From Chitinophagaceae bacterium (GTDB lineage: Bacteria > Bacteroidota > Bacteroidia > Chitinophagales > Chitinophagaceae): DNA of 43,739 bases. The stretch is from contig SEAD01000026.1 in the NCBI GenBank assembly GCA_004173355.1, forward strand, positions 1 through 43,739. The letters run 5' to 3'. A program made the position numbers and the translations under genes. Positions 33,055 through 40,098 of the stretch are shown here, piece by piece. Each line of letters begins with the position of its first letter. Within the stretch, counting starts at the first letter, position 1. The notes beneath the pieces are model-generated. The model was not told the DNA's origin, did no database searches, and was given only the letters and a program-made list of their open reading frames with translations.

Positions 33055-33816
33055 TCAGTATTCGATCCGGTATTCCATTTTTTTAGCATCATCGAAAAAA
33101 TCTTCGAGGCTGCTGGTAATCGTTACTTTCTTTTTGTCTTCCGAAAGAACCAGGTTTGCCCCCGTTACTTTTTTGGCAGCATTGGGAAGATTGATCACCA
33201 CGGTGGTTTTACCCATACCCATACCGGCCACTTCCTTGAGACCCTGCAGCATTTCGTTATCAGCCATGGTAGCGTATTTGTCAGCATCCAGTTTGGTTTC
33301 GATCAGGCCTTTGCTGTAGGTGGTCACGAAATACTGGTCCACTCCTGCTTTCTCTCCATCGGGCATCATCCCTTCCGGCATACCTTCGCCTTCTCCACCT
33401 TCTTTCATCGTCTTTTTTGTGGCTTCCTGCATCACCTTACCGGTAAGTTTGTCAATCGCAGCGATATCGGCTACGTTTTCAAACGGGAAATCAACCTTGA
33501 ATGTAAACTGGTCCTGCGGCATATCCATTTTCACCTTGAGTACACCACCTTTCATCAGTTTGCGTTGTTCCGGCGTGAGGTCCGGCACGCTGTCGGCGAT
33601 TGCCGAAAGGTTGATAGTGGTATCCATGGGGCGGTCCATTTTCTCCATCTGCTCGCCCTGGCCGGACATTTTTGCCATACCCAGCAGACCACCCATATCG
33701 ATGGTGGTGGCAATGGTACCTTTACCGCTCTGGTTAATAGTGATTTCACGGGTGGTTTCGCAACTGCTCAGCATAATTACGGCAGAGGCAAGGAAACCGG
33801 TTAAAAGCTTGTTCAT
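33055..33816 (-). CDS. Hypothetical lipoprotein
   Basis: A 253-residue protein from ATG 33816 (MNKLLTGFLASAVIMLSSC, lipobox Cys19); the frame runs 42 bases further upstream without a signal. The mature part begins TTREITINQSGKGTIATTIDMGGLL and is rich in Met/Gly/Lys, with a low-complexity loop TKKTMKEGGEGEGMPEGMMPDGEK (about residues 140-160). Two beta-rich halves: FTFKVDFPFENVADI and TTVVINLPNAAKKVTGANLVLSED. The N-terminal pattern resembles exported domains of the LppM type, but that is a guess. No close family recognised. Confidence 0.8.
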   Translation of the reverse strand: MNKLLTGFLASAVIMLSSCETTREITINQSGKGTIATTIDMGGLLGMAKMSGQGEQMEKMDRPMDTTINLSAIADSVPDLTPEQRKLMKGGVLKVKMDMPQDQFTFKVDFPFENVADIAAIDKLTGKVMQEATKKTMKEGGEGEGMPEGMMPDGEKAGVDQYFVTTYSKGLIETKLDADKYATMADNEMLQGLKEVAGMGMGKTTVVINLPNAAKKVTGANLVLSEDKKKVTITSSLEDFFDDAKKMEYRIEY

Positions 33817-33893
33817 TCGTTGTTTATTAGTGATAGTAAGATGTAAAATCGCGCCCAAAGTTGCATAAATAAAAACAATTAATGCGGAATAAA

Positions 33894-34892
33894 TCAGGCC
33901 ATGATGCGGACCAGGAGTTCCTTCATCAGTGACCCGTCCCCCGCTCCCGCGTTATTGATTCCCACGCTGCGGAGGTTATACTGGTGCAGGAGCAGCAGGA
34001 TCCGTTCCACACCCTGGTAATTATAGGTACGGGAGGCGGCGATATATTCGCGGACCATGAACGGGGAAACGCCGATGGTGGATGCCATGGCCTTTTCATC
34101 CCCTCCACTGGATCCAAACACCATAAAGACCTTGCTGAAAAATGAATACAGCGCAGGCAGGATCAGCTGGATCGGTGCGGCCTTCGGGTTGCTTTCGAAA
34201 TACTGTATGATACGTACCCCTTTTGCAAGGTCACGTTTGGAGATGGCAGCCTGCAGTTCGAATACATTGAATTCCTTGCTTACACCAACATACTCCTCGA
34301 TATCCTCCTCGGTTATTTCTTTCCTTTTCCCAAGATTGATCACAATCTTGTCCACTTCATGCACCATGCGCGTGAGGTCATTCCCAATATGATCCACCAG
34401 CATGATCACTGCCTTCTGCCCGATGCCCAGGCCTTTTGACCTGACCATCCCGGCTGTCCATTCCGGAAGCTGGTTATCATACATCTTTTTTGTGGTCAGC
34501 ATCACCCCCTTCTCTTTAAGGGCCTTTGCAAATTTTGTCCGCGCATCCACTTTTTTATCCTTGTATGATACTACAAACACGGTGCTTGCCAGTGGCTGTT
34601 CCACGTAACCCTGCAGTTTGTCGACGTCCCTCATCAGCTGCGCCTCTTTCAGGAGCACCACCTGCCGTTCGGCAAACATGGGATAACGCCTGCAGGCATT
34701 GACTATGTCCGGCCAGCTGGCATCCCTGCCATAAAACACAGTAAGGTTGAATGATGCTTCCGATTCAGGTAAAATGTGGTGTTCTGCGTACTGCATGACT
34801 TCGTCGATAAAAAATTCCTCTTCGCCTTCAAGCCAGTATACCGGTTTGAAAACACCCTTCTTCCAGTCTGCAATAATTTTATCCGCGGCCAT
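33894..34892 (-). CDS. holA: DNA polymerase III, delta subunit
   Basis: A 332-residue protein. The delta subunit opens the beta sliding clamp as part of the clamp loader. The N-terminal domain start VYWLEGEEEFFIDEVMQYAE (about 18-37) and VNACRRYPMFAERQVVLLKEAQ (about 59-80) are typical, with FVVSYKDKKVDARTKFAKAL, LVDHIGNDLTRMVHEVDKIVI and EYVGVSKEFNVFELQAAISKRD further on. The last 90 residues form the helical collar (FFSKVFMVFG...SPFMVREYIAASRTY). It is divergent from the 35076 gene and 35 bases upstream of the 33055 lipoprotein reading frame. Confidence 0.93.
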   Translation of the reverse strand: MAADKIIADWKKGVFKPVYWLEGEEEFFIDEVMQYAEHHILPESEASFNLTVFYGRDASWPDIVNACRRYPMFAERQVVLLKEAQLMRDVDKLQGYVEQPLASTVFVVSYKDKKVDARTKFAKALKEKGVMLTTKKMYDNQLPEWTAGMVRSKGLGIGQKAVIMLVDHIGNDLTRMVHEVDKIVINLGKRKEITEEDIEEYVGVSKEFNVFELQAAISKRDLAKGVRIIQYFESNPKAAPIQLILPALYSFFSKVFMVFGSSGGDEKAMASTIGVSPFMVREYIAASRTYNYQGVERILLLLHQYNLRSVGINNAGAGDGSLMKELLVRIMA

Positions 34893-35016
34893 AAGCCGCT
34901 AAGTTACAGGGTTCATTGATTTTATTTTCTCCGATCACGGAAAACTACACTGAGGGTATTTCCTGATTCTGGCACGGTTTTCGGAAAAGAGGGACAAATG
35001 GATTTGATTTGAATTG

Positions 35017-35024
35017 TAGATTTG
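35017..35024 (+). promoter_or_regulatory. -7 element TAGATTTG before the 35076 gene
   Basis: Perfect TAnnTTTG 51 bases before ATG 35076, preceded by TTTG at 35003-35006 and 35008-35011, both too close for a standard -33. Predicted leader about 45 bases. Confidence 0.4.
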
Positions 35025-35075
35025 TGATAATCCATTGAGTAATAAACCATATATAAATTACAAAAACCCATCTGT

Positions 35076-36056
35076 ATGACAAACACGAATTACCCATCCG
35101 CCACTCCACAGAACGAACCACCAAGACAGAATAAAAGCAATAAAGGCCTCCTTATAGGTGTGCTTGTTGCTGCACTTCTTGGTACATGGGGATACCTCCT
35201 GTGGGACAAAAACAAATCTGGTGAAATGATCCAGGCTGCCAACGTACAAGGCGAAAGCTACATGACGCAGCGTGACTCACTCAAATTAATGTATGACGAA
35301 GCTGAGGTTCGTCTGGACTCTATCACCGGTGCAAACAACAACCTGCAGGGTGAAAAAAGCGACCTGCAAAAGCAGATTGATGCAAACAAGACAGAGATCA
35401 AACGTATCCTGAATGACAAAAATTCTACTGCCGCTGACCTGAAAAGGGCGCAGGGTCTGATCACTAACCTGAATGCACAGCTCGCTAACCTCGAGCAGGA
35501 AGTAGCACGTCTTACTGGTGAAAACCAGGAACTGACTGCGAATAACACACAGCTTTCCAGCGAGAAAGTAGTGCTTGAGCAAAACCTGCAGACTTCAGCA
35601 TCTGAAAAAGAAGCCCTCTCAACAACTGTTGATGTAGGTTCCACATTCAGTGCTGCCAACTTCAGCATCACTCCGGTGAATGAGAAGAAAAATGGTAAAG
35701 AGAAAACTACCTCTACTGCGAAAAGGGTTGACAAACTGGTTGTAGCCTTCGATGTAGAGAACAGGATCGCGCGTTCAGGTCCAGCTGACATGTACATCAT
35801 TGTTACCGCTCCTGATGGACAGGTAGTATCTGATGCAAGTCTCCAGTCAGCTACCCTTACTACCAGGACTGATGGCGACAAACCTTACACTACCAAAGTG
35901 CCTATCGATTACGAGCAGGGCACACGTAAAAACGTAGCATTCCCTATCCGCCAGGAAGATTTCCAGCGCGGTGACTATAAAATTGAAATTTATCATAACG
36001 GGTTCAAAATTGGCGAAGGCGTCCGGACCCTGAAAAAAGGTGGTTTATTCGGTTAA
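35076..36056 (+). CDS. Membrane-anchored coiled-coil protein (paralogue A of a tandem pair)
   Basis: A 326-residue protein. Residues 1-22 are polar and cytoplasmic-looking, then a single TM helix at about 24-42 (LLIGVLVAALLGTWGYLLW), a coiled coil about 65-185 (heptads, e.g. NLNAQLANLEQEVARL and SSEKVVLEQNL), and a C-terminal beta domain about 195-326 (DKLVVAFDVENRI, DMYIIVTAPDGQVV, IDYEQGTRKNVAFPIRQEDF, YKIEIYHNGFKIGEG). Most of the protein is predicted outside the inner membrane. Codons favour ACT, GCT, CGT, GTA more than neighbours, suggesting strong expression. It shares order and motifs with the next gene. A strong terminator follows. Family not recognised. Confidence 0.85.
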   Translation: MTNTNYPSATPQNEPPRQNKSNKGLLIGVLVAALLGTWGYLLWDKNKSGEMIQAANVQGESYMTQRDSLKLMYDEAEVRLDSITGANNNLQGEKSDLQKQIDANKTEIKRILNDKNSTAADLKRAQGLITNLNAQLANLEQEVARLTGENQELTANNTQLSSEKVVLEQNLQTSASEKEALSTTVDVGSTFSAANFSITPVNEKKNGKEKTTSTAKRVDKLVVAFDVENRIARSGPADMYIIVTAPDGQVVSDASLQSATLTTRTDGDKPYTTKVPIDYEQGTRKNVAFPIRQEDFQRGDYKIEIYHNGFKIGEGVRTLKKGGLFG

Positions 36057-36080
36057 AAGCAGTTGCAACTCCTGCAACAC

Positions 36081-36115
36081 AACCGTCTTTCCTTTCCAGG
36101 AGAGGCGGTTTTTTT
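36081..36115 (+). terminator. Rho-independent terminator after the 35076 gene
   Basis: Twelve-bp stem AACCGTCTTTCC (36081-36092) / GGAGAGGCGGTT (36099-36110) with two G-T wobbles, loop TTTCCA, then a T run. It separates the two tandem paralogues. Confidence 0.88.
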
Positions 36116-36217
36116 GTGCCTGCCCGTGACCCTGGACGGCAATTCACATTTTATGCACCGGTGCCTGCCCGCCCGTTCCGGCTATCCCGGGAAAGGATAT
36201 ATTTACCGGCGAACGTT

Positions 36218-37141
36218 ATGAAAGATATCAAGCCACTGCTTATTGCCATGCTGGCCCTCGGCCTTGCCGGCACCTGGGCCTACCACCTGTATGATAAAAC
36301 CCGGTACACGCGGATCCGCAACACCGTGTTTGTAAAAGATTCAGCCGCAATTGCTGATGCCGTGCGGGATTCCCTGGGCAAAGCGTTCAGCCTGGTGGAG
36401 CGCCAGTTGGATGCCCGCCTCGACTCAACTATCAACGCCGGTGATTCCATCGAAAACAAACTGCAGTCACGGGTAAGGGAAATCAACCGCCTGAAAGCGG
36501 AAATCAATGACATCCTGAACCGGCAGGTGGTGTCAAAGGCGGACCTTTCGCAGGCCCGGAGTATGATCGGGGAATTACAGGAAAGTGTGGACGGGCTGCA
36601 CAAACAAAACCTCAGCATGGAAGAAGAAAAAATCCAGTTGCAGGGAATGCTTTCGGAGATCAGCCGGAACGCCGACAGCCTGCAGAAGAATATCAGCCGC
36701 CTCAACAGCGAGAATGCCGGACTGATGGAAAAAATCAGCCATGGCGCATACTTTATCGCAAGTGAAGTACGGCTGGCGGCCGTGAGCACCAAAAACAATA
36801 AAGACCAGGAAACCGCTACTTCTTCAAGGGCCGACAAATTCCTGGTCATGTTCAGCATCCAGAACAATATCAACCAGTATGACAACGAGGAAATGTATAT
36901 CGTAATTACTGATCCGGCAAAAAAAGTCTTGCGCAAATCCGACTGGAGTTCAGGAACGTTTGATACGAAGAAAGGCGGCCGGCAGGACTACACACGTATC
37001 ATACGATTTGATTACGAACGCGGCGAGAAGAAGGACCTTCGTTTTACCCTTGACCTTGATGAATTTGAAAAAGGTACTTACGTGATGCAGCTCTGGCATC
37101 GCGGGACATTGGTCGGACAGGCAAGTAATACATTGAATTAA
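36218..37141 (+). CDS. Membrane-anchored coiled-coil protein (paralogue B of a tandem pair)
   Basis: A 307-residue protein from ATG 36218, chosen because it starts right before the TM helix (KPLLIAMLALGLAGTWAYHLYDK, shared GTWxYxLxDK with paralogue A); the upstream frame adds 34 residues lacking similarity. Coiled coil about 65-180; the C-terminal beta domain matches A closely: DKFLVMFSIQNNI, EMYIVITDPAKKVL, FDYERGEKKDLRFTLDLDEFEKGTYVMQLWHRGTLVGQ. The coiled coils also align (ILNDKNSTAADLKRAQGLI in A with ILNRQVVSKADLSQARSMI in B). Base use is more typical of the window than that of A. A -7-like TATATTTA lies at 36198-36205. Function unknown. Confidence 0.85.
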   Translation: MKDIKPLLIAMLALGLAGTWAYHLYDKTRYTRIRNTVFVKDSAAIADAVRDSLGKAFSLVERQLDARLDSTINAGDSIENKLQSRVREINRLKAEINDILNRQVVSKADLSQARSMIGELQESVDGLHKQNLSMEEEKIQLQGMLSEISRNADSLQKNISRLNSENAGLMEKISHGAYFIASEVRLAAVSTKNNKDQETATSSRADKFLVMFSIQNNINQYDNEEMYIVITDPAKKVLRKSDWSSGTFDTKKGGRQDYTRIIRFDYERGEKKDLRFTLDLDEFEKGTYVMQLWHRGTLVGQASNTLN

Positions 37142-37188
37142 CCCGACTGCTTCGACAATCTCCAAAACTTTGCTACTGAACAACGTGC

Positions 37189-37225
37189 AAAAAAAACCCG
37201 TCCATGCCTTAAGACACAGACGGGT
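37189..37225 (-). terminator. Rho-independent terminator after the TonB-dependent receptor
   Basis: Seven-bp stem ACCCGTC (37196-37202) / GACGGGT (37219-37225) with a 16-base loop; on the minus strand followed by a run of eight T (plus A run 37189-37196). Confidence 0.8.
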
Positions 37226-37248
37226 AATTTAAATGGACTGACGAGTCC

Positions 37249-40098
37249 TTAAAAGATATTATACCCGTAAGACACATAGTACAGTCCACCAACGGCAGGG
37301 CTACCATATCCGGAACGGTAGTAGTTGTTGCCGAGGTTGGTACCACCGATGCGCCATACGCTTTTGCTTTGTTTGGGACGGTAGGTTATCTGTGCATCCA
37401 CCGTAGTGTAATAAGGAAGTGTACCTGTTACAAATGTACCTTCATAGTAGTTGTTGTCCTGCCATTTCACCACTGCGTTAAATCCGATTCCCTTGTATAA
37501 ATTCTCGTTGCGGAGACCTACATTGAATCGGTATTTCGGTGCATTGAAGAAAGAAATGAACCCTTCCGGCAGGTCGCGGATCACATCGGAAAAGAGATTA
37601 CCATAAATGAAATAAGTACCCACTGCCTGGTAATCCGCACTTACACCCCAGCCATAGGTTTTAACCTTGGTGCTGGTGTTCTGCTGGTAGGAGAAGTTGG
37701 TTGACTGGCCTGGATCCAGCGCCTGTGCTGGTGTGGCGGCTTTCACCACAGCGGTACGTGCGAGGAAGTCAGTGTACTGGCTGTAGTAGAAATATCCATC
37801 CAGCAACAGCCTTTTTGCAACAAGCCCTTTATAACCGATTTCGTAAGAAGACACACTTTCCGGTTTCATCGCGGTGAACTGTGATTCCTGCAGAAGTGCC
37901 GGGTTACCCGCAGCACGGGCAGCAGCAACGCTCTCAGCGGTATAGGTACCGGTATTCAGCTGGTACTTATCCTGGAAATCAGGCAGGCCGCCAATCAGGA
38001 ACGCCGAACCGGTATTCAGGTTGATATACTGGTCCTGGTTGGTCGGGAAACGATACGCAGTCTGGTAAGACAGGCGTATGTTATTATCTTTTGCAACATG
38101 GAACACGGCAGTAACACGTGGGGTGAAACGACCTTCAAAGTTTTCGTGTTTATCATACCTGCCGGAAGCCGTCAGGGTAAGCAGTTCACCCAGGTCTTTT
38201 TTCAGCTGGATATAACCACCATACTCGTTTACCTTGATTACACCGAGTGTATCGGTAAAGAGCGTACCACGTGAGTTCAGCACGTTCTGGCGAAATTGTC
38301 CGCCTACCAGCACTTCCACCATTTCGGAGAAACCAAGCGTTTCTGAGAGGTTCAATTGCGCCTCACCCACCCAGAGGTCGGTGCGGTCAAGGAACTTCGC
38401 ACCTTGTGGCAGCGGGGTATTCATGATATTGTTTTTCGCCTGGTCGAAAGCGGCAGTTCCCGGCTGGAACCGGCGGGTACCACCGGCGCTATCAGCAAAT
38501 CCGCGCGCGAAGGCATGTGCCTGGTCGTAGCTGTTTGCCCCACCCGCACCTGCTGCTGCCATATAGGAAGTAAATGCGGCCACATACTGCGGATACCAGG
38601 TCTGGCTTGGCTTGTAGGCTTCGTTCATCAGGCGGCCAAGGGCTGTGGCCTGTGTTGCATCACCGGCATTTTCCTGGGTGGTATAACCTCGGACGAACCA
38701 GTTTTTGGCGCGGACTTCCAGTTTATGCTGTGCGATTTTGAGATTGCGGAGGGAGTAACGGTCAGCACCGGTGTACACAGTGGTACCTGTTCCGAAATAA
38801 GTGCTGAATGACGCTTCAATTCCCGGGGTGATCTTGTAGTGAAGTGCACCGGACAATTTGACGTTGTACGTGTTATAGTCTACCAGGTCGCGCTCCTTGT
38901 AACCTTCACGTGATACGTTCTGGTTGGGGATCAGGCCCGCCTGTAGTCCGTTATAAAATGGTGCCGTCTGGGAGTTTGATCCAAGGAATCCATTGATCTG
39001 CGCCTGCGAAGGAGTCATACCACCCGTTGCAGCCATATACTGCTGGATGAATGCCCTTGTACCGGAAGCGAGTACGAGGTTGGCGATGCCCTGCATGTTC
39101 TGGGATGTTTCGTCCCCATACATATTCACGCCATCATAGTTGGGATCACTGCTGCGGTTGCCACCAACAACCTTGCTCAGGATATTGGTCCTTGCCACGT
39201 TGCGGTAATCATCTGCTTCCCAGTCCTGCGCCTGCACCATCTGTGCGGAAAGTTTGAACGCAAATTTATCCTTGAATGCTTTTGCGTAACGGATGGTCCA
39301 GTCGTAATAAGGAGCCACACCACGGTTATCATCATTGATGTGGTTAATACCCTGTTTGATATTGAAACTCAGGCCCTGGTATTTGAAAGGGTTTTTGCTG
39401 GTGATCAGTACCGTGCCATTCATACCGCCGGAGCCATACAGTGCGGAGGAAGCACCTGCGAGAAGTTCCACGTTATCGACATCGAGTTCGGTTGGCCCGA
39501 TGATACTGCCCACCGAGAAGTTGAGACCCGGTGCCTGGTTATCCATCCCGTCGATCAGCTGGTTGAGTTTGGTATTACCGCTGCTCACGAATCCGCGGGT
39601 AGTAACCGTACGGAAAGTAAGACTGGCAGTGTGCATGTCCACCCCTTTCAGGTTGGCCAGCGCTTCATAGTAACTTGGGGCGGGCACATTCCGGAGGGTC
39701 GCACCGCTTAGGCGTTCAACAGTCACCGGAGATTCGAGGATCCGCGTTGGTGTACGTGTGGCGGCCACTACTACTTCCTGCCCCAGGGTAGTATTGGGTT
39801 TGAATTCAACGTCAACTGCCGTGGCAGCATCGGCCACCGTGATTTCAAGGTTGTCATAACCAATGGACGAGAGTACGAGAGTAACCGGGAGTTTGGGTAC
39901 AGAAAGGGAAAATGCCCCGTCCTGGTTGGAGTAGGTACCGGTACTGCTCCCTTTTACCACAACGGACACTGCCGGCACCACTTCTTTGGTCACGCTGTTT
40001 TTGATATTCCCCGACACAGTGATAGACTGTGCATGGGCTGCCAGCGCGAAAAGAATGGAGAGTAACCCTGCTGTAAAAAAGCGAAAGGTTTTTTTCAT
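37249..40098 (-). CDS. TonB-dependent outer-membrane receptor with carboxypeptidase-regulatory-like domain
   Basis: A 949-residue protein from ATG 40098, which gives a clean signal peptide ([21 protein letters not shown]); the frame is open 126 bases further upstream but without signal. Domains: N-terminal carboxypeptidase-D-regulatory-like domain about 25-105 ([23 protein letters not shown]); plug about 110-230 ([74 protein letters not shown]); then a 22-strand barrel to the C-terminus, ending [10 protein letters not shown]. No SusD partner adjoins it, so it is more like a stand-alone importer for iron complexes, vitamins or peptides than a polysaccharide system. A 145-base gap separates it from the divergent purC. 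Confidence 0.93.

Follow-up and report, generated by a model that had tools for sequence, protein, structure and literature searches.

Introduction

Periplasmic force transducers of the TolA/TonB type are built from one transmembrane helix (TM), a long helical rod and a small C-terminal domain. The GldM/PorM proteins contain Ig-like domains. The Ppx/GppA enzyme family is familiar from the cytoplasm; we take its catalytic residues to be the Glu of an EEA motif and the Glu of the motif DIGGGSTE. GldM/PorM are described as the periplasmic shaft of the type IX secretion system (T9SS), 180 angstrom long and spanning most of the periplasm (PMC5790014). Among OmpA-type proteins, deletion of chu_0125 in Cytophaga hutchinsonii is reported to harm outer-membrane integrity (PMC5891637), and the structure of the OmpA-like domain of PorE is reported to contain a peptidoglycan fragment (PMC7192894).

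We analyzed positions 1-43,739 (forward strand) of contig SEAD01000026.1 from the Chitinophagaceae bacterium assembly GCA_004173355.1, a stretch of 43,739 nucleotides that we call the window. A preliminary description made from the sequence had placed two adjacent open reading frames at 35076-37141, and both were found there. We call them genes A and B. On balance we lean toward the reading that A is a core periplasmic rod anchored in the inner membrane and that B is a derived rod serving another protein, c9, with these functions inferred from computation. The features of the locus are:

35076..36056, + strand: gene A, 326 aa; short N-terminus, TM, helical rod and C-terminal Ig-like domain
Within gene A, from the AlphaFold2 model: TM inside the first helix (from residue 23) and helical rod up to residue 188
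35640..36053, + strand: C-terminal Ig-like domain and C-terminal tail of gene A, the segment used in alignment A6
36081..36110, + strand: terminator-like hairpin downstream of gene A, 13 pairs and a T tail
36218..37141, + strand: gene B (307 aa), a paralog that repeats the order of parts of gene A
36722..37138, + strand: C-terminal domain of gene B, homologous to that of gene A

Results

Genes A and B are paralogs with one order of parts

Both genes are intact open reading frames, separated in the window by 161 nt. For gene B we preferred the ATG at 36218 as the start codon; the GTG chosen by the ORF finder lies upstream at 36116. The shared motif GTWxYxLxDK and the shared C-terminal motifs reported earlier are present in both translations. 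The two proteins are 29% identical (52% positives) over 306 aligned positions by BLASTP (E 4e-44), and the similarity runs from end to end through the TM, the coiled coil and the C-terminal domain, which bears out the proposal that the common order of parts arose by a duplication that took in the coiled coil. Each protein has one TM segment near its N-terminus. The hydrophobic periodicity of both rods is strongest at 102-102.5 degrees, as expected for a heptad coiled coil; equally high peaks arose in 13 of 500 shuffles for gene A and in none of 500 for gene B. The coiled coil had been put at about 115 residues, of which the heptad periodicity holds while the helical part is nearer 140 residues in the model of gene A. 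Base usage differs between the genes as described, with a GC3 of 0.47 in gene A, 0.63 in gene B and 0.62 in the neighboring holA.

Gene A and the C-terminal profile, searched against the window's genome, each returned genes A and B only; the gene B profile gave three matches, two of which were listed. An Rfam search of 34500-37500 gave no match. A TAnnTTTG promoter box at 35017-35024 is not claimed, as the window holds 27 such sites where 25 are expected, and the promoter reading was dropped because the box occurs near the gene A start in just 9 of 80 gene A loci. Between holA and ribF lies a putative lipoprotein gene (33055-33858, - strand) that has no Pfam or NCBIfam family above cut-off and has relatives in 43 of 181 compared sequences, many of them overlapping.

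Structure model and family recognition

The AlphaFold2 model of gene A (mean pLDDT 81, pTM 0.45) contains helices at residues 23-86, 95-113 and 119-188 followed by an all-beta domain at 191-319 (pLDDT about 90), in agreement with the C-terminal beta domain predicted earlier; for gene B, the same fold would follow from homology. The domain of gene A is Ig-like. Its best fold match has a VIA Z of 9.6 (rmsd 2.8, 103 aligned), and its fold neighbors (VIA Z 8-9.6) comprise Ig/FnIII-type domains from AlkC, factor XIII and glycosidases, many of the last at Z 8-9. As modeled, this is a common fold that points to no particular function.

No listed match in Pfam-A or NCBIfam was above the curated cut-off for either protein (for gene A, among the best 25 of 30 Pfam rows by E-value), and no PDB sequence was related to the whole of gene A (E up to 1) or to the C-terminal profile (E up to 10), consistent with the earlier view that the family is unrecognized. 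In the literature searched, we found no paper on either protein or on the family. The matches below cut-off were mostly to coiled-coil models. Those to SMC, TolA_bind_tri, SH3_and_anchor and other coiled-coil profiles were set aside as composition effects, and the C-terminal domain alone (alignment A6) was therefore used to follow the distribution of the family. Alignment A6 omits one gene B row (L091) of the 41 proposed, and A5 lacks L040 and L062, both gene B rows present in A3. D[ST]x motifs were also counted, but for want of a control this count carries no weight here.

Gene A occurs throughout the class

The whole gene A protein matched 138 of 149 genomes of the order. Within the class, which we take to be Bacteroidia, the C-terminal domain profile (A6) matched 186 of 198 genomes (about 94%) and 114 of 121 genera. 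In a phylum-wide draw the same profile matched 86 of 98 class genomes and none of the 297 phylum genomes outside the class, counts based on the assumption that no unlisted genome without a match belongs to the class, as the kinship-sorted list suggests. The full-length profile A1 gave weak matches (E above 1e-6) in 36 phylum genomes outside the class, and those listed were short and fell nearly all in the helical part. In one family of the class (f24) the C-terminal domain was missing from all eight genomes drawn, a natural loss that could serve to compare function.

The neighbors of gene A differ between families, and no operon partner was common to the families compared. In the window's family, a terminator-like hairpin lies within 90 nt 3' of gene A in 62 of 79 loci, where shuffles predict 1.0. 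From the changing neighbors and the conserved 3' hairpin, gene A is read as a monocistron and a stand-alone core gene. The hairpin at 36081-36110 corresponds to the terminator that had been described between the two genes. The proposal that A and B are regulated apart is supported. The codon adaptation of gene A (0.707) is among the four highest of the 34 window ORFs and falls inside the range of the ribosomal reference (0.59-0.78, from 11 ribosomal ORFs, one of them doubtful). Gene B (0.637) and the c9 gene of the window's genome (0.636) are average. Thus codon usage hints that gene A is strongly expressed, which may explain the difference in base usage between A and B.

Three relatives in another family of the order (L252, L253 and L254) have much longer coiled coils, in proteins of 418-562 aa, so rod length varies across the order.

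c9 resembles Ppx/GppA enzymes in fold

The c9 gene is not visible in the window because in this genome it lies on another contig:

L186:2121-3386, - strand: c9 of the window's genome, on a 7.7 kb contig other than the A/B contig, with no family member beside it

The c9 protein has about 380 aa and, by eye, a hydrophobic N-terminus resembling a signal peptide; it appears to be exported. The model of one c9 protein (pLDDT 79, from a 24-row alignment) agreed best with the fold of Ppx/GppA phosphatases (3cer_A, VIA Z 25.4, rmsd 3.8, 298 aligned; Foldseek E about 1e-10), followed by NTPDases (Z about 19-21). At the sequence level, two c9 proteins of the window's family had no match to PF02541 in Pfam, c9 had no PDB sequence match of note, and the c9 of the window's genome matched TIGR03706 weakly (E 0.0013). 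A c9 relative in genome G201 (c9 profile E 9e-34) matched the Pfam Ppx-GppA family PF02541 above its cut-off (E 2e-15). HHalign detected no significant similarity between c9 and cytosolic Ppx (probability 2.3%, E 0.021). In that same non-significant register the Glu of the EEA motif falls on an invariant E157 and the Glu of DIGGGSTE on an invariant K185, so c9 seems to have a Lys where the DIGGGSTE motif has its Glu. In the wider class, c9 was found in 4 of 197 genomes beyond the window's, two of these weakly. A second, longer c9 relative, with open frames of 470-525 aa, occurs in ten genomes of the family (e.g. G890:C8:314933-315946).

Gene B and c9 occur together

The preliminary description looked to the co-occurrence of the A-B pair across the order. 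Gene A does have this range, but gene B has been found so far only in part of the window's family, where it reached at least 290 bits in 26 of 244 genomes. This threshold leaves out 10 lower-scoring gene-B-type members that adjoin c9; counting them would bias the comparison towards c9. Strong c9 matches were present in 36 of the 244 genomes (35 full-length and one fragment). They were found in 22 of the 26 gene B genomes versus 14 of the 218 others (Fisher p 4e-18, ignoring shared ancestry), one of the 22 being a contig-end fragment (G775). Four genomes had c9 without B and four had B without c9, three of the latter being 79-90% complete. By genus, c9 occurred in 14 of 16 gene B genera versus 5 of 85 others.

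Among the 35 genomes with full-length c9, a gene-B-type member adjoins c9 in 18, gene B is elsewhere in the assembly in 13, and neither holds in four; 'elsewhere' means non-neighbors in draft assemblies, far apart on one contig in some (e.g. G113, G135, G735 and G771). In the window's genome c9 is likewise not beside gene B. The order of the two genes varies: either may come first, and one pair is opposed. In 24 of 80 named related loci c9 sits between A and B. Eleven c9-adjacent members, ten of them below the 290-bit cut, group together with 27 gene B rows in a single clade (SH-aLRT 100). At loci L059 and L065, a third member of the family, shorter at 233-241 aa, is found among or alongside genes A, c9 and B.

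A reading of the tandem pair as the functional unit is not supported: gene A is nearly universal in the class, mostly without B, and the partner of gene B is most likely c9 rather than gene A.

The strongest alternative, which we consider unlikely but worth weighing, is that A and B are plain envelope spacers or tethers and that the link between B and c9 reflects genomic linkage and shared ancestry with no joint mechanism. The absence of an operon partner common to the families compared and the variable length of the coiled coil, up to a protein of 562 aa in one family, would suit such spacers. Across the 23 loci in which A, B, c9 and holA are all present, distances of c9 correlate with those of gene A as well (partial Mantel given B and holA, r 0.25, 25 of 2000 permutations); the correlation with gene B given A and holA was r 0.43 (0 of 2000 permutations). 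Against this alternative, B and c9 co-occur even when they are not adjacent: after removal of the eight adjacent cases, c9 was found in 14 of 18 gene B genomes versus 14 of 218 others (p 7e-12, again ignoring shared ancestry). They also remain neighbors despite changes in gene order. For gene A, a tether is plausible.

In genome G201, which belongs to another family of the class (f25; L187:5611-8866, - strand), the c9 relative that matches PF02541 stands in a row with an MFS transporter and then a gene A family member. This member groups with the copies of its own family, outside the gene B clade.

The C-terminal domain probably lies in the periplasm

Charges flanking the TM predict that the N-terminus is inside and the C-terminus outside in 41 of 45 gene A rows from the window's family, with the opposite in none. 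In other families the N-in orientation was predicted in 28 of 38 rows and the opposite in six. For gene B, 13 of 39 rows were for N-in and 11 against, so charge does not settle the orientation. Also in favor of this topology, cysteines are few after the TM, at 0.13-0.18 per protein in B and A versus 0.87 in other families.

The strongest evidence comes from fusion proteins that end in the A/B C-terminal domain:

L251:3697-6498, - strand: PD40/OmpA fusion protein ending in the A/B C-terminal domain
L283:1675-4746, + strand: PD40/OmpA fusion protein ending in the A/B C-terminal domain

These begin, by eye, with a signal-peptide-like stretch, followed by PD40 repeats, a carboxypeptidase-regulatory-like region, an OmpA domain and then the A/B C-terminal domain (match E 1e-22 in the first). 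They come from two genera and from 2 of the 100 genomes in that family. In NCBIfam they lie closest to the CHU_0125 family and T9SS_PorE (E 2e-78 to 2e-82), both below cut-off, with CHU_0125 scoring higher. Given these fusions and what is described for CHU_0125 and PorE, the A/B C-terminal domain is probably periplasmic, and its company suggests that it acts near the wall or the outer membrane. The TM anchor with a periplasmic rod and terminal domain that had been proposed for both proteins is thus supported for gene A by charge and through the fusions, whereas the charge of gene B leaves its side undecided.

It is improbable that the C-terminal part is instead cytoplasmic and that A and B scaffold cytoplasmic matters such as the chromosome or division machinery. 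Weak matches to SMC-like coiled-coil profiles would fit such a role, as would the positive charge of gene B, which is about equal after and before the TM, and a cruder charge count (fixed windows, no N-terminal amine) that found an N-side excess in just 67 of 122 rows. The charge bias of gene A (41 to 0) and of the other families (28 to 6) argues against it, as do the occurrence of the domain in OmpA/PD40 proteins with signal-peptide-like N-termini and the similar N-terminus of c9.

Gene B is diverged and conserved

In a tree of 122 rows (116 of the 191 distinct members, selected by a minimum length of 270 aa and by thinning at 75% identity, with 6 added), the gene B rows form one clade (39 rows, SH-aLRT 99) beside gene A of the same family. 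The tandem pairs at L028 and L030, from another family of the order, stand apart from gene B in this tree and appear to have duplicated independently. The stem branch of gene B is long, 0.81 in this tree and 1.11 in a second one, from which L062_9104p was left out for its long branch and in which A, B and other rows were thinned. Over the same 23 loci, distances were 0.76 for gene B versus 0.35 for gene A. Such branches and distances could mean that gene B is a loosely constrained duplicate being lost, which we think highly improbable, as gene B persists in 26 genomes of the family with its conserved motifs kept.

Discussion

Our preferred reading, a core rod A and a derived rod B serving c9, can be put as a mechanism. 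Proteins A and B would be anchored in the inner membrane with the N-terminus inside. Their coiled-coil rods of about 140 residues would cross the periplasm; with a helix rise of 0.15 nm per residue, a rod may reach about 20 nm if fully extended, with the Ig-like domain at its tip. As a core envelope component of Bacteroidia, A would serve to place something close to the peptidoglycan or the outer membrane. B would be a divergent duplicate recruited as a partner of c9 that is fixed in the membrane, perhaps as a docking post or regulator. Homology, distribution, phylogeny, fold models and the co-occurrence and linkage of B with c9 come from computation. Dimerization of A and B, the span of both across the periplasm, direct binding of B to c9, the target of c9 and the binding partner of A are what we infer.

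A bolder version, which we offer tentatively and hold to be rather doubtful, is that A is an unrecognized core rod running from the inner membrane to the wall or outer membrane in nearly all Bacteroidia, and that B and c9 form a periplasmic module handling polyphosphate or nucleotides, with c9 an exported enzyme or sensor of Ppx/GppA type working on a rod of A's family.

With its domain in about 94% of the class genomes sampled, codon usage in the ribosomal range and no Pfam or NCBIfam name, gene A is a candidate core part of the envelope. Gene B provides a handle, as its likely partner c9 comes from a known enzyme family; c9 can be assayed, and the function of the rod may therefore be approached through it.

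Among known systems, GldM/PorM are alike in having an inner-membrane TM followed by helical and Ig-like parts across the periplasm (the probable side in A and B), in occurring in Bacteroidota, and in length, the shaft of 180 angstrom being close to the extended A/B rod. They differ in that A and B have no sequence match to them and one Ig-like domain, and that A reaches 186 of 198 class genomes. By sequence, A and B are not GldM/PorM. The latter are encoded in the gldKLMN/porKLMN operon, and the neighbors of A and B in the compared loci are holA and varied genes, with a minority of the neighbor clusters compared with gld/por families; GldM/PorM chains were not among the 50 fold matches listed for gene A, which excludes nothing. 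That A and B are T9SS or gliding parts like these shafts is very improbable, since the common plan, the restriction to one class and the resemblance of the fusion partners to PorE are set against the lack of a sequence match to solved GldM/PorM chains (E up to 10), the genes' place beside holA and varied genes in the compared loci, and the higher score of the fusion proteins for the CHU_0125 family.

TolA/TonB-type force transducers have the same plan of one TM, a long helical rod and a small C-terminal domain, which in A and B is Ig-like; the TolA-binding-protein trimerization coiled coil of Pfam matched weakly, below cut-off (E 7.5e-5). The CHU_0125/PorE-type OmpA proteins carry the A/B C-terminal domain after their OmpA domain in two genera, whereas A and B are membrane-anchored rods with no PD40 or OmpA among the matches listed. 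The c9 protein differs from Ppx/GppA in that it appears to be exported, in the two c9 proteins that PF02541 does not match and in the seeming Lys at the DIGGGSTE position, but it shares its fold with the Ppx/GppA phosphatases and NTPDases, and a distant c9 relative scores above the Pfam Ppx-GppA cut-off.
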